Source: a virus
Length of the DNA: 35,660 nt
Reading direction: 5' to 3' (one strand)
IMG/VR virus record: IMGVR_UViG_3300042292_000237
Location: 1-35,660 of that record
Of this stretch, positions 4,030 to 27,863 are shown piece by piece (position 1 is the stretch's first letter; every line of letters starts with the position of its first letter). Below the pieces are notes generated by a model. It ran no database searches. It was not told the origin of the DNA and saw only the letters and a list, made by a program, of their open reading frames with translations. Both the position numbers and the translations under genes were made by a program.

Positions 4030-5070
4030 TTAAACGCCTTTCAAGTAAACACCAGCAAACACATCACGAATTGTGCTTGCCATCCGCATTTCAGCGTAAA
4101 TGGTAACAAAACCGGCTTGAGTTTGGTCAAAGCGTTTAATGTTCATTGTTTCAGCATCGGCAATAGTTAAAAACCTATCCCAGTTTGCTAATATTAATGG
4201 AATTGCGCCAACGGCAGGTGCGTCTAAATACGGATTAGGTATGACGGGGAAACCAAACATATAACCAACCGCCGCACCATCTTCATTACCGGCTTCAATA
4301 AACATTGGCGAACCACCTGTTGAACTTTTCAATTTACGCAAAGTTGCAATTAAGGTTGGGTGAATATGCCATGCTGTTGTTGGCATTGACCAATATTGTG
4401 CCGGCAAGGCATTAGCAATGTTAGCAATGCTGTCGTATGTTGGTGCAGTTGTGCTTGATTCAATCGTTAAAACAGTATGTAAACCATTAGTAATTGCTGT
4501 TCCGCTTGTGCCAAAGGCGGCGGCTGAAGTGCTGGTTGGGTATGATGTTAAACCACGCAAACCATTTTCTGCACCTGTAACTGTGGTTGTTGAACCTGAT
4601 TGGTCATCATTAACAGCCATAGACTCCGCTTCAATTTGACTAAACTCAAAAGCAAGGTCTTCAACAATTTCCAATTCCAAGCCATTTACATCGCTTAAAA
4701 TTGCACTACGAATTGGCAACTGTGCTGATATAACACGAACTGGCAACTGCCAAATGCTTGTGTCAATGTTTGGTGAACCACTATTAGGATTAACTGTATA
4801 ACCCCAAGGGTCTGTTGCATCTGCGGCATTACCGGTTTTAGCAACAAACTGAATATCTGAACCTGTAATGGGCATTTGTCTTGCGCCCAAACGGAATGGG
4901 TTTGCATAACGCAATTTAGCAAAAGCGTCATCAAAATAGGTGCGACCACCAACATTTGAACCGCTTCCAGTAATCGCGCTTGCCTCTTTAACAACTTTTA
5001 AATCAACGGTGGCTTCACCATCAATTAAGGCAGTTTTAATGCCATCTAAAACTCTTTCAGCGATTTTCAT
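4030..5070 (-). CDS. Second major capsid protein paralog (HK97 fold, no delta domain)
   Basis: This 346-residue protein is a clear relative of the capsid protein at 5133-6479. Shared blocks include ASA(I/L)TG, GGRT, a DTSIWQ motif, GLRGL, LPxQYW and a C-terminal RFDQTQ/RYDQTL followed by GFVT/GFIT and VRDxFAG. It lacks about 75 N-terminal residues of the first copy, i.e. the coiled-coil scaffold segment, and starts just before the processed core. It may form pentons or another minor shell position, or be a second hexamer protein. The ATG at 5070 has an AAGGAC ribosome site. A strong terminator separates it from the first copy, so its expression is probably lower or separately driven. It is intact and not a pseudogene. 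Confidence 0.85.
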   Translation of the reverse strand: MKIAERVLDGIKTALIDGEATVDLKVVKEASAITGSGSNVGGRTYFDDAFAKLRYANPFRLGARQMPITGSDIQFVAKTGNAADATDPWGYTVNPNSGSPNIDTSIWQLPVRVISAQLPIRSAILSDVNGLELEIVEDLAFEFSQIEAESMAVNDDQSGSTTTVTGAENGLRGLTSYPTSTSAAAFGTSGTAITNGLHTVLTIESSTTAPTYDSIANIANALPAQYWSMPTTAWHIHPTLIATLRKLKSSTGGSPMFIEAGNEDGAAVGYMFGFPVIPNPYLDAPAVGAIPLILANWDRFLTIADAETMNIKRFDQTQAGFVTIYAEMRMASTIRDVFAGVYLKGV

Positions 5071-5132: not shown

Positions 5133-6479
5133 TTAAGCGTTTGCTGTTCCAGTAGAACGGAAACGAACACCTGCGAATGGGTCACGAACTGAAGTTGCTA
5201 GTCGTTTTTCGCCGAAGAAAGTGATAAAACCGGGCAATGTTTGGTCATAGCGACGCAATACCATGTTTAATCTATCAACGATTGTGTAGAATTTATCCCA
5301 ATCGCCAAAGAACATTGGATATTTGCTAACTGTGCCTGCCGCGCCTGTTGCAGTTTGTGATGGTGTGTCTAAATATTTATTGACAACAACATCAAAACCT
5401 AACAATGAACCAACAATGCCATCTGTGCGTGATAAACCATCAACATAAATTGGGCGACCTTGTAAATCTGTTAAACCGCGAATTGCTTGTAGCAAAATTG
5501 GGTTAATAACAAATTTGGCTGATTCAGTCCAATATTGTTGTGGCAATGAATAAACAAAGTTAATCACATCTTTATAAGTGATGTTGTTTGCGCCAACTGT
5601 GTTTGCATTGGTTGTTAATTGGTCATAAGTAGCAAGTGAGTGTAAACCTGTTGCTGAACCTGTGCCGCTTGAACCAAATGCCGCAGTTGAACAAGTGCCG
5701 CCTGTGTAAGTTGAATTTGCACCTGCATATTGGTCTAAACCGCGCAAGCCATCAGCACCACCAGTTGCAACGCTAGTGCCAGAGCCAGTTTGGTCATTAT
5801 TGGACACCATACTTTGGGCTTCTGTCTGAGCGAATTCCGCGAGCATGTCATCTACAACATTGGCTTCTAAACCATCAATATCATCCAAAGCCGCAGTACG
5901 GATTGGGAATTGAACATTTAGGTCTTTTAAAACAATTTGCCAAATGCTTGTATCTTCAGTTGTTGCCGCGCCATTGTTCTGAATAGCATATCCCCATTGA
6001 GCGCCAGCATTGCCAGTTTTTACGCGGAATTGGTATGAAGAACCATCGGTTGTTACTGTGCGGCAAATGCCACGCAATGGGTTAGCCAAACGCAATGCAA
6101 CAAATACTGGGTCATAGGCTGTGCGACCACCTTGGTTATTACCGCCACCGGTCAATGCTGAAGCCTCTTTCATGTAAGCCGCATATTGGCTGTCATCTTC
6201 AAACATTTTTAATTCTTTTTCGGTGCGACCATTTTCTTTATGGAATTTGGCAAGTTGTTCTTTAACCATTTTATTCACATCGCCGCGAACGGTTTTTTCA
6301 ATTTTTAAGATTGATGGTGCTGGATTGATAGATGCTACTTTGGCTTCCAAAGCGGCAACTTTTTCAGAAAAAGATGCTTCAACAGCATCCACTTTGGCTG
6401 TTACTGATTCAGTAACTTTAGCAATTTCAGCAATGTTATTTGCTTCAATCGCGTCTAACTTTTCAATAATTTCAGACAT
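5133..6479 (-). CDS. Major capsid protein (HK97 fold, with N-terminal delta domain)
   Basis: This 448-residue protein is the main capsid subunit. Residues 1 to about 55 are a heptad-rich coiled coil (EIAKVTESVTAKVDAVEASF), matching the HK97 delta domain that acts as an internal scaffold. Charged helices continue to about 104. The core begins near EASALTGGGNNQGG and carries family features: a DTSIWQ strand, the long helix region VVDDMLAEFAQTEAQSM, LPQQYW, and a C-terminal MVLRRYDQTLPGFITFFGEK. The protease gene just upstream would remove the N-terminal segment. The ATG at 6479 follows a GGAT site. A terminator ends this unit at 5123-5090. A paralogous copy follows. Confidence 0.93.
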   Translation of the reverse strand: MSEIIEKLDAIEANNIAEIAKVTESVTAKVDAVEASFSEKVAALEAKVASINPAPSILKIEKTVRGDVNKMVKEQLAKFHKENGRTEKELKMFEDDSQYAAYMKEASALTGGGNNQGGRTAYDPVFVALRLANPLRGICRTVTTDGSSYQFRVKTGNAGAQWGYAIQNNGAATTEDTSIWQIVLKDLNVQFPIRTAALDDIDGLEANVVDDMLAEFAQTEAQSMVSNNDQTGSGTSVATGGADGLRGLDQYAGANSTYTGGTCSTAAFGSSGTGSATGLHSLATYDQLTTNANTVGANNITYKDVINFVYSLPQQYWTESAKFVINPILLQAIRGLTDLQGRPIYVDGLSRTDGIVGSLLGFDVVVNKYLDTPSQTATGAAGTVSKYPMFFGDWDKFYTIVDRLNMVLRRYDQTLPGFITFFGEKRLATSVRDPFAGVRFRSTGTANA

Positions 6480-7411: not shown

Positions 7412-8820
7412 TATGCTTTGCCTGCTTGACCAGTTTTGCCAACGCTTGATGTATTGCCACCGCCGCCAGTATCTTGTGGCGAACTGCCTGCAATCGTTGT
7501 TGTTGGTTTACCTGTGTCTTTTAATGCGTTTGCGCCTTCTATTTCAGCCCTGCCAAGATATGCACGCGCTTCATTAGGCGTTAATATACCGTTATTGACA
7601 CCAGCCACCACATAATTCATTTGGTCAAGCGGTGCGCCGCTTAAAAATGATTCTGTTTGAAATTCAACGCATAAGTTTGGATAACCTTGCAATAAACTTT
7701 GTTTCAGTTTTTGCTGAATGTTTACCAACATTGGGAAAATGGTTGATTTATAGAATTCATCAAGCATTGTTTGGCTATTGTTAAATTTGCCATCTTCAAT
7801 AGATAACATTGCAACTGGAACACCAAATAAACCGCATATACGCTTCATTGTTTGCATTTTAAGATTGGCACAATCAGCGTCTTGCAAATTAAGCATATCA
7901 ATTGGCAAATATTTCATGCCATTATCAAGCAACATGGATTGACCAGGCTTACTTAAATCTGTTGGGCGTGAACCCGTCATGCTTGACCATGCTTCTTTAA
8001 GCCTTGCCGCAATTTCCTTATATTTTGTATCAGGAATTACTTGGTCTGTAACAAACATTCCACTTGGCTTAGCGCCATTGGTCATTATAAAGTTTGCATA
8101 AAGGTCAATATCTTGGTCAAGCGACACTAATTCAACCGCTAAAATGCCTTTGTTAAAACCTGCTGAACCTTGCCATGCCGCTTCTTTTAAATGAATAACT
8201 TGATGCGCTTGCAATGGTGCATCTTTACTAAAACCGTATGATGGTGTTGAAAGCCTATATGTTGGATAACGGGTTGGCGTTATGGTTGCGCTAATAAGCG
8301 TGCTATCTAATACATACATTTCCAATGGTGTTTGTTGGCTGTTTTCTTGGTCTTTGCGCCATAAAACAGTAAACACTTCGCCGGATAAATCAAGCCACAT
8401 ACAGAATTGATACCAAAATTCATATTGGCTTTGGAAATGATTGGGTGCTTGCAATAAGGCTAGAACAGATTTCGCTTTGGCTTTATCGCGTGCTGAAACT
8501 TTATCGCTTAAACAAGCATCAACTAATGAACCATCATCGGTTGTTGCCATAATTTTAATGGGTAATTGTGCAAGTGCGCGTGCTTTAACGCCAACGCAAG
8601 ACATAATTGTTGAATTTCGGCTTAAAACCGACATATCCACCAAGCGACCTGCTTCATTGGCACTTGATGTTGTTACATATAATAATTGGCTGGATGATGC
8701 GTATTGTTTTGCACCAGCATTGCGGATAATGTTATTACCAAGGGCGGTTTGCCCAAAAAGCGTATTGCTTTCTTTGGCGTTTGTCTGCGATTTTCTTTTG
8801 AATATATCTAGAATAGCCAT
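7411..8820 (-). CDS. Portal protein (HK97 family)
   Basis: This 469-residue protein forms the dodecameric ring at the packaging vertex. It begins MAILDIFKRK and has the HK97 portal pattern: SVLSRNSTIMSCVGVKARALAQLPIKI near the N-terminus, a long helical stem, KMQTMKRICGLFGVPVAMLS around the crown, and GILTPNEARAYLGRAEIEG late, all typical. The C-terminal tail is Gly/Thr/Ser-rich and disordered. Length matches the family. It lies nine bases after the large terminase stop. The order terminase, portal, protease, capsid is canonical. Confidence 0.92.
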   Translation of the reverse strand: MAILDIFKRKSQTNAKESNTLFGQTALGNNIIRNAGAKQYASSSQLLYVTTSSANEAGRLVDMSVLSRNSTIMSCVGVKARALAQLPIKIMATTDDGSLVDACLSDKVSARDKAKAKSVLALLQAPNHFQSQYEFWYQFCMWLDLSGEVFTVLWRKDQENSQQTPLEMYVLDSTLISATITPTRYPTYRLSTPSYGFSKDAPLQAHQVIHLKEAAWQGSAGFNKGILAVELVSLDQDIDLYANFIMTNGAKPSGMFVTDQVIPDTKYKEIAARLKEAWSSMTGSRPTDLSKPGQSMLLDNGMKYLPIDMLNLQDADCANLKMQTMKRICGLFGVPVAMLSIEDGKFNNSQTMLDEFYKSTIFPMLVNIQQKLKQSLLQGYPNLCVEFQTESFLSGAPLDQMNYVVAGVNNGILTPNEARAYLGRAEIEGANALKDTGKPTTTIAGSSPQDTGGGGNTSSVGKTGQAGKA

Positions 8821-8829
8821 GTTAATCCC

Positions 8830-10488
8830 TTATAAACTACGAAAACCGTATGAAGATGAAGCCAAGGGATTATCAAGTGAACAGTGCATTGCGATAATCA
8901 GGGCAATAATGCCATCAACCTTTGCTGATTTATCCGCTTCGTTCTTACGCACCTTGATATTCCCGTTTACATCTTCATAAACTTCGCAGTTGCCTAACTG
9001 CCAACCTACAAATGGGTTGCCATCGTGTCTTATGAATTGCGACATTACCAGTTTTTCTATGTGCTTGGATGGGTTACTTAAAACCGCCATTCCTTGCCCA
9101 ACCTTTTTGACTGGTATGCCAGCATCGTGTAAACGCGCAATTAAAGATGCGGCGTTATAAGCATCATAGCCAACTTCTTTAACATTGTAAAGTGTCGCTT
9201 GACTTTTTATATAATCGCTTATTTCGCGGTCATCCATTACATTGCCTTGGGTAATATGCAATATGCCAGAACGAACGGCTTGGTCAAACACATCGCGGTA
9301 ATGTGTAGGCACTAATGCTAATCCATCTTCAGGCAAGAAAAATTTAAATTCTGCATGGTAATCTTCATTGCTGTATCGTTTAAGCGTGCAAACAGCGTTT
9401 AAATCGCGTGTGGCGGCAAGGTCAAAGCCTATAAATACCGATTCAGGCTCGCCTTTGTTTTCACCAATGCTATTATCCCAATATTGCCTATCAAGCCATG
9501 CGCTATTAGCAGATACATAAACATTAAGTGTTTTGCATAAGAATTCATTTAATGCGGCAGGTTTTAATTTTGCTTGTTCGCATCTTTCAGCAATAGCGTC
9601 TTGATAAATGCTAATTCCGTGCATGGGATTTGCTTTTGCCCATGTTGTTGGGTCACGCCAATCATCTTGTGGGTCAAGCCCATATAATAATCCAAACCAA
9701 TGTGGGTTGTCTGACGCATCGCCATGCAACATTGCTTCAAACATTTGCATATCTTCATAAAACTTTGTATCTTTTGTAAAACTGGCAGTTGTAATATAAA
9801 TTCTAAGTGGATTGCGACGCGCAACCATACCTGAATGAATAACCTCAATGCTGTTCCTATCTATAATCTGTGCGGCTTCATCTACTATGGCGCAACTGGC
9901 GTTTTTCCCATCGCCCGATTTTTTATTATCGCGTGATAGGGCTTTAAACATAGATTGCAAATCATTGGTTTTTTTAATTTCATATTTGCTAACATCAAAT
10001 ACATTTTTAACTTCAGATGGCATGTTTTCAACAAAACCTTTTGCGGCATCAAAAACAATAGTTGCCTGTTCGCGATTGGTAGCCAATGTAAATACTTCAG
10101 CACCGGCTTCGCCAAATTGCAATTCATAAAGGCTAATTCCTGCGGTGAATGTTGATTTACCTGCTTTGCGTGGAATAAAAATTATTACATCTGTTACCAT
10201 GCGTTTTTCATGGTCTTTTTTACTGCGGAAACCATAAATGGCGCAAATGGCAAAAATTTGGAAAGGTTCAAGAATTAAAGGTTTGCCTGCATCGGCGCCC
10301 TTGGTGTGTTTTAGCGTGCCAAAAAATTCCAGCACATGTTCTACATATTCGGCAACAAATTCATATTGCCATTGTTTATCTTCAAGTTGGTTTAAAAATC
10401 GTTGGCAAGTTAATTTAACATTATTGCAAACAATAATATTTCCTTTAACTACATCTATTGCATAAAAAATTCCATCTTCTAATTTCAT
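8830..10488 (-). CDS. terL: Terminase large subunit
   Basis: This 552-residue packaging motor has both terminase domains. The ATPase has a Walker A-like PRKAGKS (106-112), Walker B CAIVDEA (199-205) with the catalytic acid, and a coupling motif YITTASF (about 231). The nuclease has Asp356 in FIGFDLAATRDLNAV, a second Asp in VKEVGYDAYNAASL, and a third in KVDGIIALIIAMHC. It fits the Terminase_1 family used with HK97-type portals, often in cos-packaging phages. The ATG overlaps the small-subunit stop by four bases (ATGA). Confidence 0.94.
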   Translation of the reverse strand: MKLEDGIFYAIDVVKGNIIVCNNVKLTCQRFLNQLEDKQWQYEFVAEYVEHVLEFFGTLKHTKGADAGKPLILEPFQIFAICAIYGFRSKKDHEKRMVTDVIIFIPRKAGKSTFTAGISLYELQFGEAGAEVFTLATNREQATIVFDAAKGFVENMPSEVKNVFDVSKYEIKKTNDLQSMFKALSRDNKKSGDGKNASCAIVDEAAQIIDRNSIEVIHSGMVARRNPLRIYITTASFTKDTKFYEDMQMFEAMLHGDASDNPHWFGLLYGLDPQDDWRDPTTWAKANPMHGISIYQDAIAERCEQAKLKPAALNEFLCKTLNVYVSANSAWLDRQYWDNSIGENKGEPESVFIGFDLAATRDLNAVCTLKRYSNEDYHAEFKFFLPEDGLALVPTHYRDVFDQAVRSGILHITQGNVMDDREISDYIKSQATLYNVKEVGYDAYNAASLIARLHDAGIPVKKVGQGMAVLSNPSKHIEKLVMSQFIRHDGNPFVGWQLGNCEVYEDVNGNIKVRKNEADKSAKVDGIIALIIAMHCSLDNPLASSSYGFRSL

Positions 10489-10961
10489 TTTTTGGTAACT
10501 TTAACGCCAGACAATAAACTTCCATAAGTTGTATCGCTTATAGTGCCTTTTCTATCAAACTGGCTTTTAGGTGTTAAGCCCAATTCATTCATTAATACCA
10601 CAATCTTATTAAGCGAATCTTTCATCACGCTAACATAAGGGTTTGCGCCCATTGTTTTACCATTATTAAATGTTGTAACAATACCATTTGTTTTAATACC
10701 TTTTTTGCAACGAATATACATAGACATTTGGTCAGCCAGCATTTGTAAAATATGCCGATGTTGTTCTGCGCCTATTGAATATGTTTCCCATAGAAAATCT
10801 GATGTTTCTTTAATAAATCTTTTTTCATCCCAAGCATCAGGACTATCAATCCATTCTGAAAATGGTATTCTTTTACGAACATTTTCAGGCAATATTGAAC
10901 CTTGATTTAATCCTTTAGTGCCGCGAACAATATGCAATTCTGGTGGCAATTTATTTGACAT
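10485..10961 (-). CDS. terS: Terminase small subunit (P27-like)
   Basis: This protein recognises phage DNA for packaging. I choose the ATG at 10961-10959 with a GGAA site eight bases upstream; the longer frame to 10973 would use TTG. From here it is 158 residues, beginning MSNKLPPELHIVRGTKG and then ENVRKRIPFSEWIDSPDAWD, the opening of P27-type small subunits. A helical middle part and a basic tail (GVKVTKK) follow. It overlaps the large subunit by four bases and the ABC-GNAT gene before it by eleven, so all are translationally linked. Confidence 0.8.
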   Translation of the reverse strand: MSNKLPPELHIVRGTKGLNQGSILPENVRKRIPFSEWIDSPDAWDEKRFIKETSDFLWETYSIGAEQHRHILQMLADQMSMYIRCKKGIKTNGIVTTFNNGKTMGANPYVSVMKDSLNKIVVLMNELGLTPKSQFDRKGTISDTTYGSLLSGVKVTKK

Positions 10962-12108
10962 TATTATTTCCAATGTATTTAAAAGAATAAGTTTTTACAT
11001 TTAATCTAAACCCAAAAGAATTTTCGTTACTTTCACTATTTATTCTAGTAAATTTAGATTTACCTCTTTTCATATTTCCGCCAACGGTTACTTTATGTTT
11101 TCTTTCAACAGCATTTAATTTCCAATTTTTATCCTTGTTTAATGAATTAAAAACTGGCGCACTAGAAAATTTACCCATAACTTCATAATTTTTATTTTTA
11201 ATAATTTCTGAACATATATTTAAAAAATGAACACCTAAACCAAATCCACAATAATCCGGATGTATAACCAATCTATTAAAATGTAATATTAATTTTGCAT
11301 TTGGTCTTTTAGGAACATAATTTGAAAAAGCCAAAAATCCAATTTCATTCATTCCATCATATAATGCAAAATAATAGGCTTTTCCACCAGCCAATCTATC
11401 GCTTAAATAGTGATACTTGCTAAAATAAGCCCATGAACTTCTGTTTGTTTCTTTAATTGTAAATTGTAATTGTTCTGTTCGTTTATAAGTTTGCCAAAGC
11501 GACCTCCTATTTTCATAGGTTTGTTTATTAGCATCAATAATCCAATCAGGATTTAACCATTCAATTACATCGTAATGGCATGATAATAAAATTATTTTTG
11601 TATCTATTTTTCTTGCGTGTTTTTGTATGCAATGCGACATTACTTTTGCAATGGTTCTATCAACAACAGATGTCCATTCATCAATAATAATTATTTGTTT
11701 ATCCATTCTCGCCATTTGCAATGCACATTCAGCACGCGCCCTTTGCCCATTGCTTAATGTTTGGGCTGGTCTTATCCAGCATGGCACACTTGTTAATCCA
11801 ACACCGCAAAGCATTGCGGCACATTCGTCATAACTATATTTATCAGGAAATTGTTCTATAACAGGAATTTTTGGATTTAAAATTTCATCAAAACAATCAT
11901 CCCCCCATATATGTTTTGCCAATGTTGTTTTACCGCTACCCGATGCGCCAACAATTAAACCAATATTAAATTTAGTTTCTATATCTGCTGAAACATTAAA
12001 TTCATGTATTGATTTTTTTTCTGCATCAATATCTAAACTATTAGCGGCTTTAACACATTTGAATGATGTTGAAACAGGCGAAATTAGTTTTAACTTAAAA
12101 TTTTGCAT
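10951..12108 (-). CDS. ABC-type ATPase fused to a GNAT/Mom-like domain
   Basis: This 385-residue protein has two parts. Residues about 45-205 are an ABC ATPase without membrane segments: Walker A GASGSGKT (54-61), signature LSNGQRARAE (118-127), Walker B IIIIDEW (139-145) and H-loop His178. Residues about 215-345 resemble a GNAT acyltransferase, with the acyl-CoA-binding-like RLVIHPDYCGFGLG (279-292). The KYHYLS segment (231-236) recalls the His-Tyr-containing region of Mom-like DNA modification enzymes. It overlaps the ParB-like gene by 19 bases and the small terminase by 11. A role in DNA modification or protection coupled to packaging is an inference; a protein-modifying role is also possible. 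The ATG at 12108 follows AGAGG. Confidence 0.75.
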   Translation of the reverse strand: MQNFKLKLISPVSTSFKCVKAANSLDIDAEKKSIHEFNVSADIETKFNIGLIVGASGSGKTTLAKHIWGDDCFDEILNPKIPVIEQFPDKYSYDECAAMLCGVGLTSVPCWIRPAQTLSNGQRARAECALQMARMDKQIIIIDEWTSVVDRTIAKVMSHCIQKHARKIDTKIILLSCHYDVIEWLNPDWIIDANKQTYENRRSLWQTYKRTEQLQFTIKETNRSSWAYFSKYHYLSDRLAGGKAYYFALYDGMNEIGFLAFSNYVPKRPNAKLILHFNRLVIHPDYCGFGLGVHFLNICSEIIKNKNYEVMGKFSSAPVFNSLNKDKNWKLNAVERKHKVTVGGNMKRGKSKFTRINSESNENSFGFRLNVKTYSFKYIGNNNVK

Positions 12109-12635
12109 TGGAAACCTCTATTTTGCATTTCTTCAAAAATTAATTCCAATTCCCTTTCATCAACACATTCAATCATTAATAAGTTTTTAGATTCATTAAT
12201 TACTGAATTTTCATCTTTCATTTCATCGTCATTTTCAAATTCAAATTCTTTTAATTCATCTTTGCTAAAACCAAGCAAATCAACATTAAATCCAAATTCT
12301 TTTAAATCTGTTATTTCAATCCCAAGCAATTCATTATCCCAACCTGAATTTAATGCCAATTTATTGTCGGCAATAATGTAGGCTTTCTTTTGCATTTCGG
12401 TTAAACCATCAAGTTGAATGGTGGGCACTTCTTTTTCACCAAGCAATCGGGCGGCTTGCAACCTGCCATGCCCAGCAATGATTCCGTTTTCGCCATCAAG
12501 CAATAAGGGATTAGTCCAACCAAACTCTTTTATGCTTGACGCAATTTGTTGCACTTGGTCAAAACTATGTGTCCGACTATTGTTAATGTATGGGATTAAT
12601 TCATCAATTTTTTTATATTCTATTTTTAATTTCAT
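12090..12635 (-). CDS. ParB/sulfiredoxin-domain protein
   Basis: This 181-residue protein has a ParB N-terminal-type domain (residues 1-95) with the hallmark GIIAGHGRLQAARLLG (51-66) followed by NKLALNSGWD, as in phage ParB-like proteins usually attached to DNA methylases. Here no methylase domain follows. Instead there is an acidic linker and a small C-terminal module (LLMIECVDERELELIFEEM) also seen at the ends of such fusions. The domain may hydrolyse nucleotides or bind DNA. It overlaps the ABC-GNAT gene by 19 bases, so they probably act together. AAGGAAAAGATA precedes the ATG. Confidence 0.82.
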   Translation of the reverse strand: MKLKIEYKKIDELIPYINNSRTHSFDQVQQIASSIKEFGWTNPLLLDGENGIIAGHGRLQAARLLGEKEVPTIQLDGLTEMQKKAYIIADNKLALNSGWDNELLGIEITDLKEFGFNVDLLGFSKDELKEFEFENDDEMKDENSVINESKNLLMIECVDERELELIFEEMQNRGFQCKILS

Positions 12636-12741
12636 TATCTTTTCCTTTTTTGTTTAGACTACCTACCTTCCGAACTCCATTTGCACAAAATTGGGTGCGC
12701 AATTGCTTGCTAAGCATCTTATAAAATTTTAAGTTATTCAT
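12613..12741 (-). CDS. Short basic peptide (42 aa), tentative
   Basis: This ATG frame starts eight bases inside the end of the winged-helix gene and ends inside the ParB gene start, filling an otherwise empty 98-base gap. The product begins MNNLKFYKMLSKQLRTQF and is rich in Lys and Arg. A GGGCAATAA site precedes the ATG. Overlap style fits this operon, but the peptide is short and unrecognised, and the stretch could equally be untranslated leader for the ParB gene. Confidence 0.35.
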   Translation of the reverse strand: MNNLKFYKMLSKQLRTQFCANGVRKVGSLNKKGKDNEIKNRI

Positions 12742-13165
12742 TTATTGCCCATTTTTTTGCATTATTTGACATAAAGCCTTGATGCACTCTGCCTGCGCGT
12801 GGAATGATGTTTGTATAACCTAATTTAATCATAAGCGTTATATCCATATCAGGCACATCGGGTAATGGTTCTTCAGGTTGTTCTATGTTCCTTGCAGGGT
12901 CGCGGTATCGCCATACATAAGGTTTATCGCTTATGGTTGTATAACCACATGACCATTGCCCATTATATTTTGCCACCCGTTCATGTTTAGATATATAGCC
13001 ATCTTCAACTAAATTAAGCAAATGAATATTAATGCCTTGGCATGGTATGTTTAAGCGTTCTGCTATTTGTCTGATAGTTAATATATCGTAATGGCACGCA
13101 TCAATTATTGCTTGACGGGTATGTGTTGATTTTTCTATTCTAACTTTACTGCGTGCCTTGCCCAT
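12734..13165 (-). CDS. Winged-helix DNA-binding protein
   Basis: This 143-residue protein has an N-terminal winged helix-turn-helix: ILTIRQIAERLNIPCQGINIHLLNLVEDGYI at about residues 28-58 reads as helix, turn, recognition helix and wing, in the style of transcription factors that sense promoter DNA. The rest, with a Pro/Glu-rich linker (about 90-105) and a C-terminal TNIIPRAGRVHQGFM, is unfamiliar. It is the only clear sequence-specific regulator candidate in the genome and may time late leftward genes. It begins six bases after the HNH gene stops. Confidence 0.6.
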   Translation of the reverse strand: MGKARSKVRIEKSTHTRQAIIDACHYDILTIRQIAERLNIPCQGINIHLLNLVEDGYISKHERVAKYNGQWSCGYTTISDKPYVWRYRDPARNIEQPEEPLPDVPDMDITLMIKLGYTNIIPRAGRVHQGFMSNNAKKWAINE

Positions 13166-13171
13166 TATGTT

Positions 13172-13585
13172 TTATCCTATTGTCCTATTATAATCAGCAT
13201 CGGTATATGTATGCACCCCATCTGCTGTGTAATACAAATATTGCCCATGCGATTCCATTTGTGTCTTTAATGTATGGCACGATTGGCACAATGATTGGAA
13301 CAGGTTGCGCTTAAACTTATCATTGTTTTGCCTATGTGGAAACACATGGTCTATATGTTCCGCTTGCACCACCTTACCTGCACATAAACATCCAGCACAT
13401 AATGGCTGTTGGCTTAATTGTGCCGCCCTTTGTCTTTTCCATGCGGCTGTTGAATATAGTTTGCTATTAGCCTTACCCTTTTCGGTTATGCCGCCACCAT
13501 GTTCAACACAAAAGCAAGACCGCGTTGTTTTAGGGTTATTGCATCCTAATTCGCGGCACTTATTATTTTTTGGAACTGTCGGCAA
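13172..13585 (-). CDS. HNH endonuclease
   Basis: This 137-residue protein has an HNH motif with zinc-binding cysteines: CAGCLCAG, then AEHIDHVFPHRQ (catalytic His pair), an Asn in KRNLF, and SLCQSCHTLKT. Small HNH enzymes near terminase genes are needed for cos cleavage in HK97-like phages, which suggests cohesive ends. Here it is separated from the terminase by the winged-helix, ParB and ABC-GNAT genes. The N-terminus has its own Cys cluster (CRELGCNNP, CFCVEH). The only start in frame is TTG at 13585-13583, inside the previous gene by 23 bases, so translation is probably coupled. Confidence 0.85.
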   Translation of the reverse strand: MPTVPKNNKCRELGCNNPKTTRSCFCVEHGGGITEKGKANSKLYSTAAWKRQRAAQLSQQPLCAGCLCAGKVVQAEHIDHVFPHRQNNDKFKRNLFQSLCQSCHTLKTQMESHGQYLYYTADGVHTYTDADYNRTIG

Positions 13586-13757
13586 TTGGGTTTAATTTGG
13601 CTAATACTAATAATACTGTTTGTTCAACTGAACCGTCTTTAGCATCGGCTAATGCTTTTGCTACATCGGCAGGGTCTAATTTATAACGCTGTGCATCTTC
13701 AACAATGCTACGGTTAGTGCTAACAAGTTGCTTTATTGCGGCTTGAACTTCTTTCAT
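13563..13757 (-). CDS. Small helical hypothetical protein
   Basis: This 64-residue protein is helical, with an AQRYKLDPADVAKALADAKDG segment and an Ala/Leu-rich C-terminus. It overlaps the HNH gene by 23 bases and follows an AGGGGA ribosome site. Position next to HNH and terminase functions suggests a packaging or nuclease partner, but I recognise no family. Confidence 0.65.
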   Translation of the reverse strand: MKEVQAAIKQLVSTNRSIVEDAQRYKLDPADVAKALADAKDGSVEQTVLLVLAKLNPIADSSKK

Positions 13758-13767
13758 GATATTCCCC

Positions 13768-14154
13768 TTACTTTAAAAATGTTAATTTATATATTGTGCT
13801 GTTGATTAAATTTAAAATGCTATCCACTTCATTTTGCAATTCGCTGTCATTACCAATTACTGAACGATTAAGCGTTACATAAACTGACAATGCCTGTAAT
13901 TCTAATAAGCCTGTGTCGGCTGGTTTAATATATTCAACAGGGTATTGCACAATGCCATGCTTGCCTTGATAGGATTCAATTAAGCCATCGGTTAATTCAA
14001 CCACTTCATCATAAAATGAATTTAATGCTTGGTGTTCGCTGTAACTGCGTGATTGCAAGTGCAATATGTGTGTGTTGGTTGCCGAGTGCAATAGCGTTAA
14101 AAAGAACGCACCAACAGTTAATTGCGCTTCGTTAATAGTAAATGTCTGTTTCAT
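13768..14154 (-). CDS. DUF5856 family protein
   Basis: This 128-residue all-helical protein matches the DUF5856 pattern of many phages: LLHSATNTHILHLQSRSYSEHQALNSFYDEVVELTDGLIESYQGK at about residues 21-65, with conserved His and Glu residues that in this family look like a four-helix, possibly metal-binding (Dps-like) bundle. The function is not established. The ATG overlaps the stop of the Ref-like gene by four bases. It is intact and of normal length. Confidence 0.7.
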   Translation of the reverse strand: MKQTFTINEAQLTVGAFFLTLLHSATNTHILHLQSRSYSEHQALNSFYDEVVELTDGLIESYQGKHGIVQYPVEYIKPADTGLLELQALSVYVTLNRSVIGNDSELQNEVDSILNLINSTIYKLTFLK

Positions 14155-14441
14155 ATTTCGCCCCTTAAAATCTTTGTGGTGTGTTCAAGCAATTCGGTTT
14201 CCGTTCCATACTTGACTTCAAATGCCGTTTTTCCCGAATGGAATGCCACAGCGTAACCGCCATTTGTATGATGTAACGGGCATAAGGGTATTGCCAATAA
14301 ATAATGCGACCTTTGTGCCATGCCTACACCATGCCTAATGTGATGTATGTGTGGCATTGTATAACCGAACCCCTCGCGTTGGCAAACTATACATCCAATC
14401 TGACTTAACTTATCGTAATGCTGGCGTTCTGCTTTTGTCAT
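14151..14441 (-). CDS. Ref-like HNH recombination nuclease
   Basis: This 96-residue protein resembles the Ref family (phage P1 recombination enhancement function), RecA-directed HNH nucleases. It shows CIVCQREG (Cys17, Cys20), HIHHIRHGVG, then IPLCPLHHTNGGYAVAFHSG and a C-terminal YGTETELLEHT, the usual order. It lacks the long N-terminal arm of P1 Ref, as many phage relatives do. It lies one base from the NinB-like gene stop and overlaps the DUF5856 start, within the replication/recombination part of the leftward operon. Confidence 0.72.
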   Translation of the reverse strand: MTKAERQHYDKLSQIGCIVCQREGFGYTMPHIHHIRHGVGMAQRSHYLLAIPLCPLHHTNGGYAVAFHSGKTAFEVKYGTETELLEHTTKILRGEI

Positions 14442-14747
14442 TTAATCTTGCAACCATATATTGTGTTCAGCCGCCCATCGTTCTACGCGTGCCATAAAAT
14501 CATTCAATTCAGCAACATTGCAATCAGCCGTTGATTTTAATTCGGTTATGACTTTGCCATTTGATGCCCTGTATTCATTATAGCCAAGGTATCTATCCTT
14601 GAACATTACTTTCCACCAATGGTGGTTATGGTAAAGCCCATCTGCGGCTGGCACATTGGCGGCAATTTCGGTAAACAATAAATGCAATCGGTTATTTTGC
14701 GGTAATGACCGTTTAGGTTCTTGACCGCATTCTTTACATTTTGCCAT
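14442..14747 (-). CDS. NinB-like recombination protein
   Basis: This 101-residue protein resembles lambda NinB (Orf), a single-strand-binding recombination mediator. RSLPQNNRLHLLFTEIA near residue 13, then WWKVMFKDRYLG, and a C-terminal LNDFMARVERWAAEHNIWL agree with that family. An N-terminal CKECGQ pair precedes the domain, as in some phage relatives. It may load annealing proteins onto SSB-coated DNA and would complement the Sak/YqaJ pair on the other strand. Start and stop are tight against neighbours. Confidence 0.68.
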   Translation of the reverse strand: MAKCKECGQEPKRSLPQNNRLHLLFTEIAANVPAADGLYHNHHWWKVMFKDRYLGYNEYRASNGKVITELKSTADCNVAELNDFMARVERWAAEHNIWLQD

Positions 14748-14916
14748 TGTTTATTTCCTGTGCTTTAGCCTTTGCATCATTGGCGCTGTCAAAATAACCA
14801 TAATTAGTGTTTTTATTTGAAAGCCCATATTTAACGGTTCCATCCGCTTTATAATATTTAGCAATAAACCAATTATCGGATTTAATGCAATAATTATCTA
14901 ATTTAAGCCATTTCAT
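14734..14916 (-). CDS. Small hypothetical protein (60 aa)
   Basis: I start this at the ATG at 14916 because an AGGAAG site precedes it by nine bases; an upstream ATG at 14937 would add seven residues. The product, MKWLKLDNYCIKSDNWFIAK onward, has strand-like YGLSNKNTNYGYFDSANDAK and a helical end with an Ala/Lys pattern. Similar short phage proteins exist but no function is known. It overlaps both neighbours by 14 bases, consistent with a coupled operon. Confidence 0.6.
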   Translation of the reverse strand: MKWLKLDNYCIKSDNWFIAKYYKADGTVKYGLSNKNTNYGYFDSANDAKAKAQEINNGKM

Positions 14917-15325
14917 ATTGCATGGCTTCCTGTGCATATTTCAAACTAATTTCTGGAAAATTTTGTGGATTAGCAATAATGCGCTTTGCCCATGCTTTAT
15001 GGTCTGTTTTTGGTTTAAGTTTTTTAGCAACAAACTTTGTTAATTCTTCAACATGTTTTTTATTTTCTTCATAATTAACTGGCGATGGCAATGCAAAGTA
15101 AACTTCTTCCCTTGGCTTGCATAAAGCAATAATATCGGCAGGCTGTGGCAATTTGTTTGGTGTATCAGTCCAAATATCAAATGCTTTGCCAACAATGCTA
15201 AATTCAAAGCGTTCTAATTTATGCCACCATATACGCAACATTTCTTTTTCGGGTGCGCTTTTGTTATATATGGCAAATACCGCATTAACCATATCTGCAA
15301 ACGGTCTTTTATCTGTATCAATCAT
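14903..15325 (-). CDS. Probable replicative helicase loader/inhibitor (G39P-like)
   Basis: This 140-residue protein has a helical N-terminal domain: FADMVNAVFAIYNKSAPEKEMLRIWWHKLERF, then AFDIWTDTPNKLPQPADI, similar to the helicase loader-inhibitor type of SPP1 G39P. These bring DnaB-type helicases to the origin. The C-terminal half is Lys-rich and probably flexible. It follows the O-like gene directly, the place of lambda P. As no phage helicase is seen, it would recruit the host helicase. Similarity is at the pattern level, so confidence is moderate. Confidence 0.6.
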   Translation of the reverse strand: MIDTDKRPFADMVNAVFAIYNKSAPEKEMLRIWWHKLERFEFSIVGKAFDIWTDTPNKLPQPADIIALCKPREEVYFALPSPVNYEENKKHVEELTKFVAKKLKPKTDHKAWAKRIIANPQNFPEISLKYAQEAMQYEMA

Positions 15326-15334
15326 ATAGTTTCC

Positions 15335-16033
15335 TTAAAATGGGTTCATATCAATAATGGGTTGTTCATCTTGCCAACGCCCTTGATTTAAATATGTTGC
15401 TGGATTTGGAATATATTGCCCATCATTCTTGCGCCATTGGTCTGATTCCCTTTGCCATTGTAATGCGTTTAATACATCATCAATTTTTACATTTGCTTTT
15501 GCCCACGATTTAGCCGCTGCACCTTTACCAATTTTCTTTGGGTATGCTTGCCAAAATTCTTGAAATTCAGCATCAAGCGATTTATCGCGTAAAGGTTTTA
15601 TATTGGTTAATAGTTTATGGTTAATGGTTAATGGTTTATGGTTAAGGTTAAGTTCGCTTTCATTTGGGTTTTTATAATTAACCGATTGGGTTTTATCCTG
15701 CGCTGTGCTTAACTTTGCTGGTCTGCCCCCCAGTTTACCATTTTCTTTATTTTTGCCTGCTTTAGCATGAAATTCAAGTATTTCCACTTCAATGCGATTA
15801 TGAACATAACCTTTTTCTTTTAATTCAAAAAAATCATTTAATACATTTTCAACCAAATTAACCATATCAAAACCTAAAGATAAGCGTCTAATAACCAATT
15901 GGGTTTCTTTGGGTATTGGATGTTCATCTAAATAATACCAATCAATTAAACTGCGATATATATAGTGTTCTGTTGGATTTAAATGTGTCGTATCTTTCCG
16001 ATAATCTGCGATATTAAATTTATAATAGTGCAT
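15335..16033 (-). CDS. DUF1376 O-like replication protein
   Basis: This protein probably starts replication. From the ATG at 16033 with a GGGAC site it has 232 residues; an in-frame GTG at 16060 is less likely because family members begin MHYYKFNI. The N-terminal part (MHYYKFNIADYRKDTTHLNP, then HYIYRSLIDWYYLDEHPIP) is the DUF1376 winged-helix-like domain. The C-terminal FQEFWQAYPKKIGKGAAAKSWAK domain is common to phage replication initiators. The linker is coded by tandem heptamers (15605-15652), so the gene may contain its own origin, as lambda O does. Confidence 0.78.
   Translation of the reverse strand: MHYYKFNIADYRKDTTHLNPTEHYIYRSLIDWYYLDEHPIPKETQLVIRRLSLGFDMVNLVENVLNDFFELKEKGYVHNRIEVEILEFHAKAGKNKENGKLGGRPAKLSTAQDKTQSVNYKNPNESELNLNHKPLTINHKLLTNIKPLRDKSLDAEFQEFWQAYPKKIGKGAAAKSWAKANVKIDDVLNALQWQRESDQWRKNDGQYIPNPATYLNQGRWQDEQPIIDMNPF
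15605..15652. repeat. Iteron-like heptamer array, candidate replication origin
   Basis: Six contiguous seven-base units (GGTTAAT, AGTTTAT, GGTTAAT, GGTTAAT, GGTTTAT, GGTTAAG) plus a shortened seventh lie inside the DUF1376 gene. They encode a repeated NHKPLT/NHKLLT linker between the two protein domains. This is the same arrangement as the origin iterons in lambda O. Function is inferred. Confidence 0.55.
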
Positions 16034-16052
16034 TTGTTTGTCCCATGAAAAA

Positions 16053-16129
16053 GGCTTCACCTGCTAACTCCACTTTTTTAAGGTGGTTGGAAGAACGGTC
16101 TTAGTAACCGCCAGTTAGCATGTGAAGCC
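16053..16129. repeat. 77-nt near-perfect inverted repeat with inner hairpins
   Basis: Arms 16053-16069 and 16113-16129 pair at 16 of 17 positions. Between them are two smaller hairpins, CCAC/GTGG around a T-run (16070-16086) and CGGT/ACCG (16096-16110), so the whole can fold as a three-way junction. It lies between the VRR-NUC stop and the DUF1376 start, outside the preferred coding start, and could be a structured leader RNA or part of the origin. Confidence 0.6.
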
Positions 16130-16141
16130 CTACTAAAGTTA

Positions 16142-16157
16142 ATCACTTCCAAGTGAT
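16142..16157. promoter_or_regulatory. Short palindrome, possible operator
   Basis: ATCACTT-CC-AAGTGAT is a seven-base dyad with a two-base centre, between the 77-nt inverted repeat and the end of the VRR-NUC gene. No second copy was noticed, so a protein-binding role is only a suggestion. Confidence 0.3.
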
Positions 16158-16179
16158 GACTAATATTAAATTAAAGTTT

Positions 16180-16530
16180 TTATTTTCGCAAGTAATTATT
16201 TATTGCATCTTTTGCTTCATCAAAACCATAACAAATAATAGATTGATAACCCATAAATGTTGCCGCTTTTATAAATTCTTTTTGACTATCTGAAACACGA
16301 CCGCCTTTAACTTTCATTTCAATCCATAACCCATGATAACCATACATTGGTATCATTAAAAATAAATCAGGAACTCCAGCCAATACACCTTCTTTTTTTA
16401 ATTTAACGGCTGTTCCTATATTGCGAACGCCGCCATTTGGTATGGCAAACAAATAACTGGCATATTGCCTATGCTGAAGCCTAAACCAATTTATAACAGC
16501 CACTTGTTCTTGATGTTCATTCATTTTCAT
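16180..16530 (-). CDS. VRR-NUC domain nuclease
   Basis: This 116-residue protein is a stand-alone VRR-NUC (PD-(D/E)XK) enzyme: Asp55 in GVLAGVPDLFL, Glu71-x-Lys73 in HGLWIEMKVKGG, and Gln83 in VSDSQKEF. Such phage enzymes act on branched DNA, probably resolving recombination or packaging junctions. IPNGGVRNIGTAVKLKKEG before the active site is typical. It is the first leftward gene beside the control region. No clear Shine-Dalgarno site precedes the ATG, so the start could be the second Met (residue 3). Confidence 0.85.
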   Translation of the reverse strand: MKMNEHQEQVAVINWFRLQHRQYASYLFAIPNGGVRNIGTAVKLKKEGVLAGVPDLFLMIPMYGYHGLWIEMKVKGGRVSDSQKEFIKAATFMGYQSIICYGFDEAKDAINNYLRK

Positions 16531-16567
16531 TAAATTATTTTAACATTAAAAAAATTTAAAATAATCC

Positions 16568-16596
16568 TTGCGATACAATTAAACTGCATTTAATAT
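16568..16596 (+). promoter_or_regulatory. Probable sigma70-type promoter for the rightward genes
   Basis: TTGCGA (16568-16573) and TAATAT (16591-16596) are separated by exactly 17 bases, each matching four of six consensus positions, about 50 bases before the first rightward gene. A five-base dyad overlaps the expected start point. The divergent block organisation requires a rightward promoter here. Confidence 0.5.
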
Positions 16597-16599
16597 GAA

Positions 16600-16615
16600 G
16601 TTGTGGTTAGACAAC
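16600..16615. promoter_or_regulatory. Dyad near the rightward transcription start, possible operator
   Basis: GTTGT-GGTTAG-ACAAC is a five-base perfect inverted repeat with a six-base centre, overlapping the predicted start of rightward transcription. A repressor site is plausible but unproven. Confidence 0.3.
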
Positions 16616-26716: not shown

Positions 26717-26746
26717 ATTGTAGCACTTATTTAAAATAATCACCAA
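26717..26746 (-). promoter_or_regulatory. Possible extended -10 promoter for the fibre/lysis genes
   Basis: On the minus strand TGCTACAAT matches an extended -10 element (TGnTAtAAT-like), with TTGGTG 18 bases upstream. It sits at the end of the oxygenase gene and would start transcripts near 26710 toward the fibre and lysis genes. Confidence 0.4.
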
Positions 26747-27863
26747 CCATCCAAGTAACAACAGTATAGCGAATTCCTTTTGTAACAGGTTCAACACCAT
26801 GTAACATAAAAGACGGGAACACAATTACATCGCCTTTGCTTTGTTTTGGATAAAATTTTTCATGTCCGTTTTGAATAAAGAATTTTCCACCCTCAAAATC
26901 ATCATTTAGTATTGCTAATACTGTAAGTTTTCTACATTCATTTGAATGTTTATGAACAGTATCAGTATGCGCTTCATATTTACCATCAATTTCATACATT
27001 AAAAATTCAGTTTGATTTGAATGTGTAATGTCATATTTCCAAAATTGATTGTTTAGATTTAATCCTAATGATGTTAGCGTTGCCCCAATTCCTTGATTCA
27101 TTGGCAATGGCAACCTTTGAACATTACGAATATCTAAATTAAGATTTTTTCCACCATCGCCAATATAAGGCAATTCTTTTTTAACTTCTTTTTTTGAGTA
27201 TTCAGCAATTATGTTATCGCAAAATTGTTCTGAAACAGCATTTGGAATTGTGTAACCACTTTCAAAACATTTTTCTTTTTTTAATTCAGTCCTGCTAATT
27301 CCTAAAGATTCGCGCTTGTCGTATTTCCAATCAGCGTATATTCCATTTGCATCAACATAGTGTAAAAACACTTGCGCTTGCCAATTACCTTCAAAATACG
27401 ATTCACGCCAATGATATTTTTCTAAGCCTTTATAAAGAACTACATCGCCAATGCCCATGTCAATTTTTGTAGCGTTTGTTTTGTCTTTATTGTCGCCCAT
27501 ATAAATAGACCAAACATTGCCATCAAAACCTAATGTAATTGTTGCAGATATTTCGCAGGCTTCCCTATCTACATGAACTTCTAAAACTTCACTTTGTGTA
27601 TCATATAAACGCGCATAACTATATGTTGGATAAAGTTGCTTGCCGCAAGCCTTTTCAAAATAAGGCAAACAGTATTCTAATAATTTATCAAAAACTAATT
27701 CACCATGAACACCTTGTGATTTTGGACATTGCCAATCTTTGACTGTTTTATTTTCACTAATTAGTTTATGTAATTCATCAATCAATTCATCGCATGAAGT
27801 TTTTGGTAAAAAATTCTGCAAGTGAACATACTTATTTTGTTCAAAAAATTCTATTGTATTCAT
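26727..27863 (-). CDS. Tandem two-domain 2-oxoglutarate/Fe(II) oxygenase
   Basis: This 378-residue protein has two oxygenase-like halves. The N-terminal half has His97-x-Asp99 in LEVHVDREACEIS and a distal His151 in KYHWRES, but no obvious cosubstrate Arg. The C-terminal half is a complete prolyl-hydroxylase-like domain: His299-x-Asp301 in YEAHTDTVH, His355 in SFMLHGVEP and Arg365 in GIRYTVVTW. The substrate is unknown. Its position within fibre genes suggests a role on surface proteins, sugars or host metabolism; the family is frequent in aquatic phages. Start at 27863. Confidence 0.82.
   Translation of the reverse strand: MNTIEFFEQNKYVHLQNFLPKTSCDELIDELHKLISENKTVKDWQCPKSQGVHGELVFDKLLEYCLPYFEKACGKQLYPTYSYARLYDTQSEVLEVHVDREACEISATITLGFDGNVWSIYMGDNKDKTNATKIDMGIGDVVLYKGLEKYHWRESYFEGNWQAQVFLHYVDANGIYADWKYDKRESLGISRTELKKEKCFESGYTIPNAVSEQFCDNIIAEYSKKEVKKELPYIGDGGKNLNLDIRNVQRLPLPMNQGIGATLTSLGLNLNNQFWKYDITHSNQTEFLMYEIDGKYEAHTDTVHKHSNECRKLTVLAILNDDFEGGKFFIQNGHEKFYPKQSKGDVIVFPSFMLHGVEPVTKGIRYTVVTWMVGDYFK

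Follow-up and report, generated by a model that had tools for sequence, protein, structure and literature searches.

A ParB and ABC ATPase–GNAT pair beside phage terminase genes as a probable, exchangeable DNA-modification cassette

What is a ParB-like protein, together with an ABC ATPase fused to an acetyltransferase-like (GNAT) domain, doing directly in front of the terminase genes of a phage? The arrangement is found in a 35,660-base IMG/VR virus record, the whole of which is referred to here as the window, and all genes of the cassette lie on its minus strand. The pair is a real, conserved and swappable cassette. We consider it probable that it serves late-region modification of phage DNA, with ParB as an adaptor and the GNAT domain carrying out an ATP-driven acylation of a DNA base.

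An acylating role for this family was predicted long ago. According to PMC7824862, which cites Iyer et al. 2013 (NAR 41:7635), a GNAT domain coupled with an ABC ATPase was predicted to place an as yet uncharacterised acyl group on a DNA base, and pT24 was named as an example phage. The link to base modification made in a preliminary description of this DNA is thus present in the literature. The pT24 protein is homologous to the window ABC-GNAT (34% identity, E = 3e-42, tblastn), and the family of Iyer et al. 2013, PHROG 11143, has the same domain order. Our literature search found no paper reporting chemistry for any ABC-GNAT member, nothing on the restriction behaviour of Leptospira LE3/LE4 DNA, and nothing on COG2401.

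Layout of the locus and its two proteins

On the minus strand, the genes run in the order small winged-helix protein (12734–13165), ParB/Srx (12090–12635, 181 aa), ABC ATPase-GNAT fusion (10951–12108, 385 aa), P27-type TerS (10485–10961; PF05119, E = 5e-13), TerL (8830–10488; TerL_nuclease 3.9e-40, TerL_ATPase 4e-28), portal, protease and two tandem major-head-protein-like genes. The ParB and ABC-GNAT ORFs overlap by 19 bases (12090–12108). For TerS, the ORF tool picks a TTG at 10973, and the ATG at 10961, which stands behind TTGGAAATAATAATG, is the likelier start; from this ATG, TerS overlaps ABC-GNAT by 11 bases. ORF coordinates and start context therefore confirm the gene order and the two overlaps reported in the preliminary description. 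Promoter and terminator scanning of positions 8500–16600 found no more signals than would be expected in shuffled sequence, which gives no ground for drawing an operon boundary. Elsewhere in the window, the adjacent genes at 4030–5070 and 5133–6479 each hit phrog_10, a family of major head proteins (E = 3e-19 and 2.5e-33). A 378-aa protein of the tail region (26727–27863) draws PHROG matches to ferrochelatase, 2OG-Fe(II) oxygenase and endonuclease V; as these conflict, the family names are probably misapplied.

The ABC-GNAT protein matches phrog_11143 (function unknown) over the whole length of the profile (residues 12–382, E = 3e-78) and has the composition of that family, with the ABC domain N-terminal and the GNAT domain C-terminal in one chain. 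An AlphaFold2 model built on 61 homologues (pLDDT 89) splits into an ABC ATPase (residues 1–204; 11497–12108, minus strand) and a GNAT domain (residues 214–383; 10960–11469, minus strand). The ABC domain matches PF00005 (E = 3.9e-7) and superposes on MalK (2awn) with Z = 14.5 and 3.0 Å over 177 residues. Its motifs comprise Walker A GASGSGKT (54–61), signature LSNGQ (118–122), Walker B DE (143–144), D-loop SVVD (147–150) and the H-switch H178, and the catalytic residues G54, G59, K60, L118, S119, G121, D143, E144, D150 and H178 are present in all 61 homologues. Pfam recognises the GNAT half weakly (E = 0.009) and its fold is clear, with residues 214–381 giving Z = 14.4 to 1y9k (3.3 Å over 138 residues) and Z = 14.0 to RimI (5isv). 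Residues W226, H233, Y234, R279, P284 and G288 of this half are invariant (61/61), and W329 is nearly so. The acyl-CoA loop is CGFGLG (287–292); its G-x-G-x-G/A pattern is kept in 55 of the 61 homologues, which makes an acyl-CoA donor likely.

The window ParB matches phrog_620 (E = 4e-55). Its N-domain (residues 1–130; 12246–12635, minus strand) has the ParB/sulfiredoxin fold, superposing on CDP-bound ParB (6sdk) with Z = 13.6 and 1.5 Å over 92 residues, and its nucleotide pocket is conserved among homologues (box-II arginine R58 in 42/45, N91 in 41/45, G55 in 45/45), placing the protein in the ParB/Srx superfamily. Profile matches and model fold searches hence bear out all three domains named in the preliminary description, and, of the structural comparisons proposed there for the GNAT half, the one with GNAT folds gives a clear match. 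We also considered a MADS defence system and rejected it: PADLOC assigns mad3 (7.9e-13) only to residues 113–219 of ABC-GNAT, which is part of the ABC domain, and mad8 more weakly, while the N-terminal part of ParB matches its MTase_II model (5.8e-36).

The fold of this ParB also matches partition ParBs and Noc, which might suggest a partition or transcription-control module, unrelated to modification and near the terminase by chance. We regard this as extremely improbable. The 181 residues comprise ParB-N, short helices and a 33-residue tail, with no HTH or ParA-binding region; the NCBIfam parB_part model scores 21 bits against a cut-off of 58, and there is no parA among the neighbour genes examined. 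Furthermore, the recurrent association with modification enzymes and the specificity of the tail, both described below, are far from chance.

The GNAT half compared with Mom and ordinary acetyltransferases

The GNAT half had been described as carrying a Mom-like HY region. The HY pair itself stands: H233-Y234 (codons at 11407–11412, minus strand) is invariant in 61/61 ABC-GNATs, HY occurs in 83/83 Mom sequences, and in both families an invariant arginine follows. Kinship with Mom is only partly supported, with a weak profile match and a retained CoA loop. The Mom family model PF25680 finds no match in ABC-GNAT at E = 0.1, whereas the Mom proteins of loci L124 and L169 give 7e-55 and 5e-44. Alignment of the GNAT half with Mom by hhalign places the HY pairs in the same frame, weakly (P ~0.002, probability 12%; the ABC half as control gives P = 0.067), and we do not assign ABC-GNAT to the Mom family. 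Nor is R279 retained as a Mom-specific catalytic residue, as an arginine before the acyl-CoA loop is also common in ordinary GNATs. Mom (8bv8) is not among the matches listed in the fold search of the ABC-GNAT model, an absence that does not argue against a common fold.

Mom (phage Mu; PF25680; PDB 8bv8) is, like ABC-GNAT, a GNAT-superfamily protein with the invariant H-Y and following arginine, and it occupies the same ParB-linked, pre-terminase slot in Psychrobacter phage Y8A. It differs in having no ABC domain and no acyl-CoA loop: PRNSESRA takes the place of the loop, and G-x-G-x-G/A occurs anywhere in only 12 of 83 sequences. That ABC-GNAT works like Mom is plausible from the shared H-Y pair.

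A different reading is that the GNAT domain acetylates proteins and thereby adjusts packaging or host factors such as terminase, nucleoid proteins or RNA polymerase, while ParB and the ABC domain do the targeting or serve as a motor. Consistent with this, the matches listed in the fold search of the ABC-GNAT model include RimI and other ordinary GNATs, the canonical acyl-CoA loop is kept, and the gene adjoins the terminase. Acetylation of RNA polymerase by a phage GNAT has a precedent in Rac of phiKMV-like phages, cited in PMC7824862. The evidence that weighs against this reading comes from the genes that replace ABC-GNAT in related phages.

Conservation and exchange at the pre-terminase slot

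ABC-GNAT homologues were found in 62 phage records by tblastn and in more than 590 viral contig stretches by profile scan. Loci were examined as the best 80 of each scan, a partly redundant and related set, so the numbers below are counts and not frequencies. ParB abuts or overlaps ABC-GNAT in 67 of the 76 viral loci with upstream sequence, an adjacency far beyond chance, and the commonest overlaps are of 22 bases (31 loci), 19 bases (10) and 4 bases (9). TerS or TerL is frequently the next gene after ABC-GNAT. With the wider set of seeds, a TerL gene is found no more than 2.5 kb downstream in 52 of 64 loci (36 of 64 with the initial seeds). The succession of ParB, ABC-GNAT and terminase genes is seen again in Pasteurella Pmp13, Leptospira LE4, Streptococcus Javan523 and MismyG, Lactococcus P335, Gordonia Yago84 and Pseudoalteromonas SL25. 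The survey of neighbours suggested in the preliminary description therefore yields both the pairing and a coupling to terminase genes that is conserved across unrelated phages. There are exceptions, with some ABC-GNATs lacking ParB or lying away from the terminase (P12024S, PX29, vB_VmeM-32, EastWest). In bacterial genome contigs, ParB is adjacent in 53 of 76 ABC-GNAT loci with upstream sequence (best 80 of the scan); among named hosts, Pasteurella testudinis and Psychrobacter pygoscelis are the closest.

Several lactic and streptococcal phages encode the ABC and GNAT parts as two ORFs, with a 4-base overlap in P335 and Vinitor-27. Loci L007, L008, L010 and L020, from phages of streptococci, lactococci and Oenococcus, have separate ORFs, which overlap by 4 bases in L008 and L020, and such split ORFs are annotated as siderophore transporter or methylase, labels that are misleading. 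In the large phage Cyrano (L023:3605–6520), two ParB-like genes precede a free-standing ABC gene and one with the annotation MK0520-type acetyltransferase, a distant version of the set with no terminase adjoining in the stretch seen.

In two Mu-like phages, ABC-GNAT follows the tail genes, the com-mom position of Mu. One clade (L264–L343; Mu-like, Porphyromonas and Gordonia phages) has a formyltransferase gene (PF00551) directly 3' of ABC-GNAT in 45 of the 70 loci whose sequence extends far enough downstream (e.g., L009:6056–6529, L016:6074–6691, L015:1823–2473). This neighbour suggests a second modification step. Should this enzyme work on the product of ABC-GNAT, one may speculate that the acyl group carries an amine to which a formyl group is added.

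Strong indirect evidence on function comes from close relatives that lack ABC-GNAT. Loci L106, L107/L427, L108, L110/L426 and L428 are ~90% identical to the window in DNA from portal through TerL, with TerS at 85–91% and the ParB N-domain at 82–88%. By blastn, homology stops at window positions 12228–12249 and resumes at 10961–10975, which delimits an exchangeable segment of approximately 10972–12240 (minus strand) holding ABC-GNAT and the ParB tail. Both are missing from these relatives, and an N6/N4 DNA methyltransferase fused to the ParB N-domain stands in their place. The inserted methyltransferases are of at least two unlike kinds: those of L106 and L110 are 31% identical, that of L107 has little or no similarity to either, and PF01555 is found in the L106 and L107 proteins. 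A parallel exchange is seen in Psychrobacter, where phage Y8A reads ParB, Mom, TerS, TerL and a P. pygoscelis prophage reads ParB, ABC-GNAT, TerS, TerL. Between the two, ParB (residues 3–123), TerS and portal are 73%, 66% and 58% identical, and the partners are unrelated. A more distant relative, L431, has TerL-region DNA 70% identical to the window. Ahead of its window-related TerS, the stretch L431:707–3129 encodes a protein resembling PAPS reductase, a second ParB-like protein, a small protein resembling GNATs and a small ORF rich in Cys, which make up another cassette type at the same place.

We also collected the window ParB's 80 nearest relatives, whatever their partner, which gave 79 new loci. 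Nine stand beside ABC-GNAT, 51 are long ParBs with a C-terminal extension, 17 are short ParBs with another gene adjoining, and two lie at a contig edge. Pfam analysis of the 68 non-ABC proteins returned N6_N4_Mtase (51), C5 DNA methylase (5), Mom (2), TET-associated glycosyltransferase (TAGT; 2), PAPS reductase (1) and histidine phosphatase/nucleotidyltransferase (2). The gene flanking ParB on its opposite side served as a control (95 genes) and showed no such DNA-modification family among the 25 families listed; four further families of one member each lay outside that listing. In a scan starting from Mom (best 80), ParB lies directly upstream in 76 of 78 loci. On a tree of ParB N-domains, parsimony counts 34 label changes between ABC-GNAT and other partners, and 41 against 71 shuffled when weak nodes are collapsed; as the domain is short, these counts are suggestive only and not proof. 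The two phosphatase-type proteins (L112:5731–6696, L113:5737–6699) combine a histidine-phosphatase and a cytidylyltransferase-like domain beside ParB in the DNA-modifier slot, and are possibly an undescribed modification enzyme.

The tail of ParB follows its partner. ParBs linked to ABC-GNAT end in a 33-residue segment with a β-α-β pattern (by eye), in the window residues 149–181, SKNLLMIECVDERELELIFEEMQNRGFQCKILS (12093–12191, minus strand), modelled with pLDDT ~93–97 over most of its length. A tail HMM trained on 23 ABC-GNAT-linked ParBs matched 64 of the 66 such ParBs kept out of training and, in the formyltransferase clade, 43 of 44 (107/110 together), always within five residues of the ParB C-terminus. 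It matched none of 51 methyltransferase-fused, 17 separate other-partner and 76 Mom-linked ParBs (0/144 together). The tail is thus specific to ABC-GNAT, and it moves together with ABC-GNAT in the allelic exchange. It is a candidate docking segment, probably taking the place of a covalent fusion.

These exchanges bear directly on the protein-acetyltransferase reading. The slot in relatives, sometimes with near-identical flanks, holds DNA methyltransferases, Mom, TAGT or PAPS reductase, and no known protein modifier was among the occupants found; we consider that reading unlikely. That near-identical phages carry a DNA methyltransferase here, and a Psychrobacter phage Mom, instead supports the DNA-modification role put forward in the preliminary description. 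The exchange shows the purpose of the slot, and from its position there we infer that ABC-GNAT itself modifies DNA.

Proposed mechanism and implications

In phages, ParB folds commonly occur as fusions with DNA methyltransferases; a conserved arginine allows ParB folds to bind a range of NTPs, and GTP is bound by one bacterial fusion of ParB to an acetyltransferase (PMC12704722). Non-specific DNA nicking is reported for a ParB-methylase of Bacillus cereus, and other members of the ParB/Srx superfamily act as NTPases and DNases (PMC5512222). The last findings, along with the retention of R58 and N91 in nearly all homologues, would also fit a restriction-modification-like system, in which ParB would be the active weapon, nicking or cleaving competing or unmodified DNA under NTP control, and ABC-GNAT would shield self DNA. 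Against this, no additional nuclease domain is present, and a ParB fused to or swapped among many modification enzymes fits an adaptor equally well. We hold this effector role to be quite unlikely; it overlaps with our preferred explanation, since DNA modification is part of both.

In the preferred explanation, ParB/Srx would be a shared nucleotide-binding adaptor that brings a modification enzyme to phage DNA, with its 33-residue tail docking ABC-GNAT. The ABC domain, with its invariant catalytic residues, is expected to be a soluble ATPase, very likely an ATP-sandwich dimer, and its ATP cycle may open, flip or clamp DNA for the attached acyltransferase. The GNAT domain, whose fold and CoA loop are observed, would move an acyl group from an acyl-CoA donor to a base of the phage DNA, and the H-Y pair and R279 may line or build the active site. 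The translational overlap with TerS argues that the cassette is late and that DNA would be marked before or during packaging, a timing suggested by synteny; the marked DNA would then be protected from restriction in the next host.

Related systems share parts of this arrangement. Phage ParB-N6/N4 DNA methyltransferase fusions (PHROG 498; PMC12704722; B. cereus, PMC5512222) have the ParB N-domain, locus, TerS and TerL in common with the window, but their modification domain is SAM-dependent and fused, whereas ABC-GNAT is a separate protein beside a ParB with its own tail. The phosphorothioate and deazaguanine systems with DndB/DndD and DpdB likewise have ParB-superfamily and ABC ATPase accessories (PMC10853773, PMC12839542). 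They differ in a coiled-coil ABC family and other chemistry, and the window cassette contains no sulfur or TGT gene.

A broader proposal, which we advance tentatively and at somewhat less than even confidence, is that in many phages the pre-terminase position is a standard socket. A constant ParB/Srx would act as an NTP-gated DNA-loading adaptor for exchangeable, unrelated modifiers, namely methyltransferases, Mom, a glycosyltransferase, the PAPS-reductase type and, with its own docking tail, ABC-GNAT. The latter would write a new ATP-driven acyl modification, perhaps N-formyl-aminoacyl in the formyltransferase clade. As far as we have checked, the new evidence is that ABC-GNAT takes part in allelic exchange, that the ParB tail is specific to its partner and that Mom and ABC-GNAT share a slot, while the prediction of DNA acylation by ABC-GNAT is itself long known.

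The ABC-GNAT family has been a prediction only for more than ten years, and the natural swap with a DNA methyltransferase or Mom is the nearest sequence equivalent of a genetic experiment. It makes the question directly testable, by comparing virion DNA across phages with different cassettes. If the model is correct, these phages would carry a new DNA base modification that requires an ABC ATPase, and the common, unexplained phage ParB proteins beside the terminase would gain a function. The type of ParB tail would then be a simple signature predicting a phage's kind of modification.
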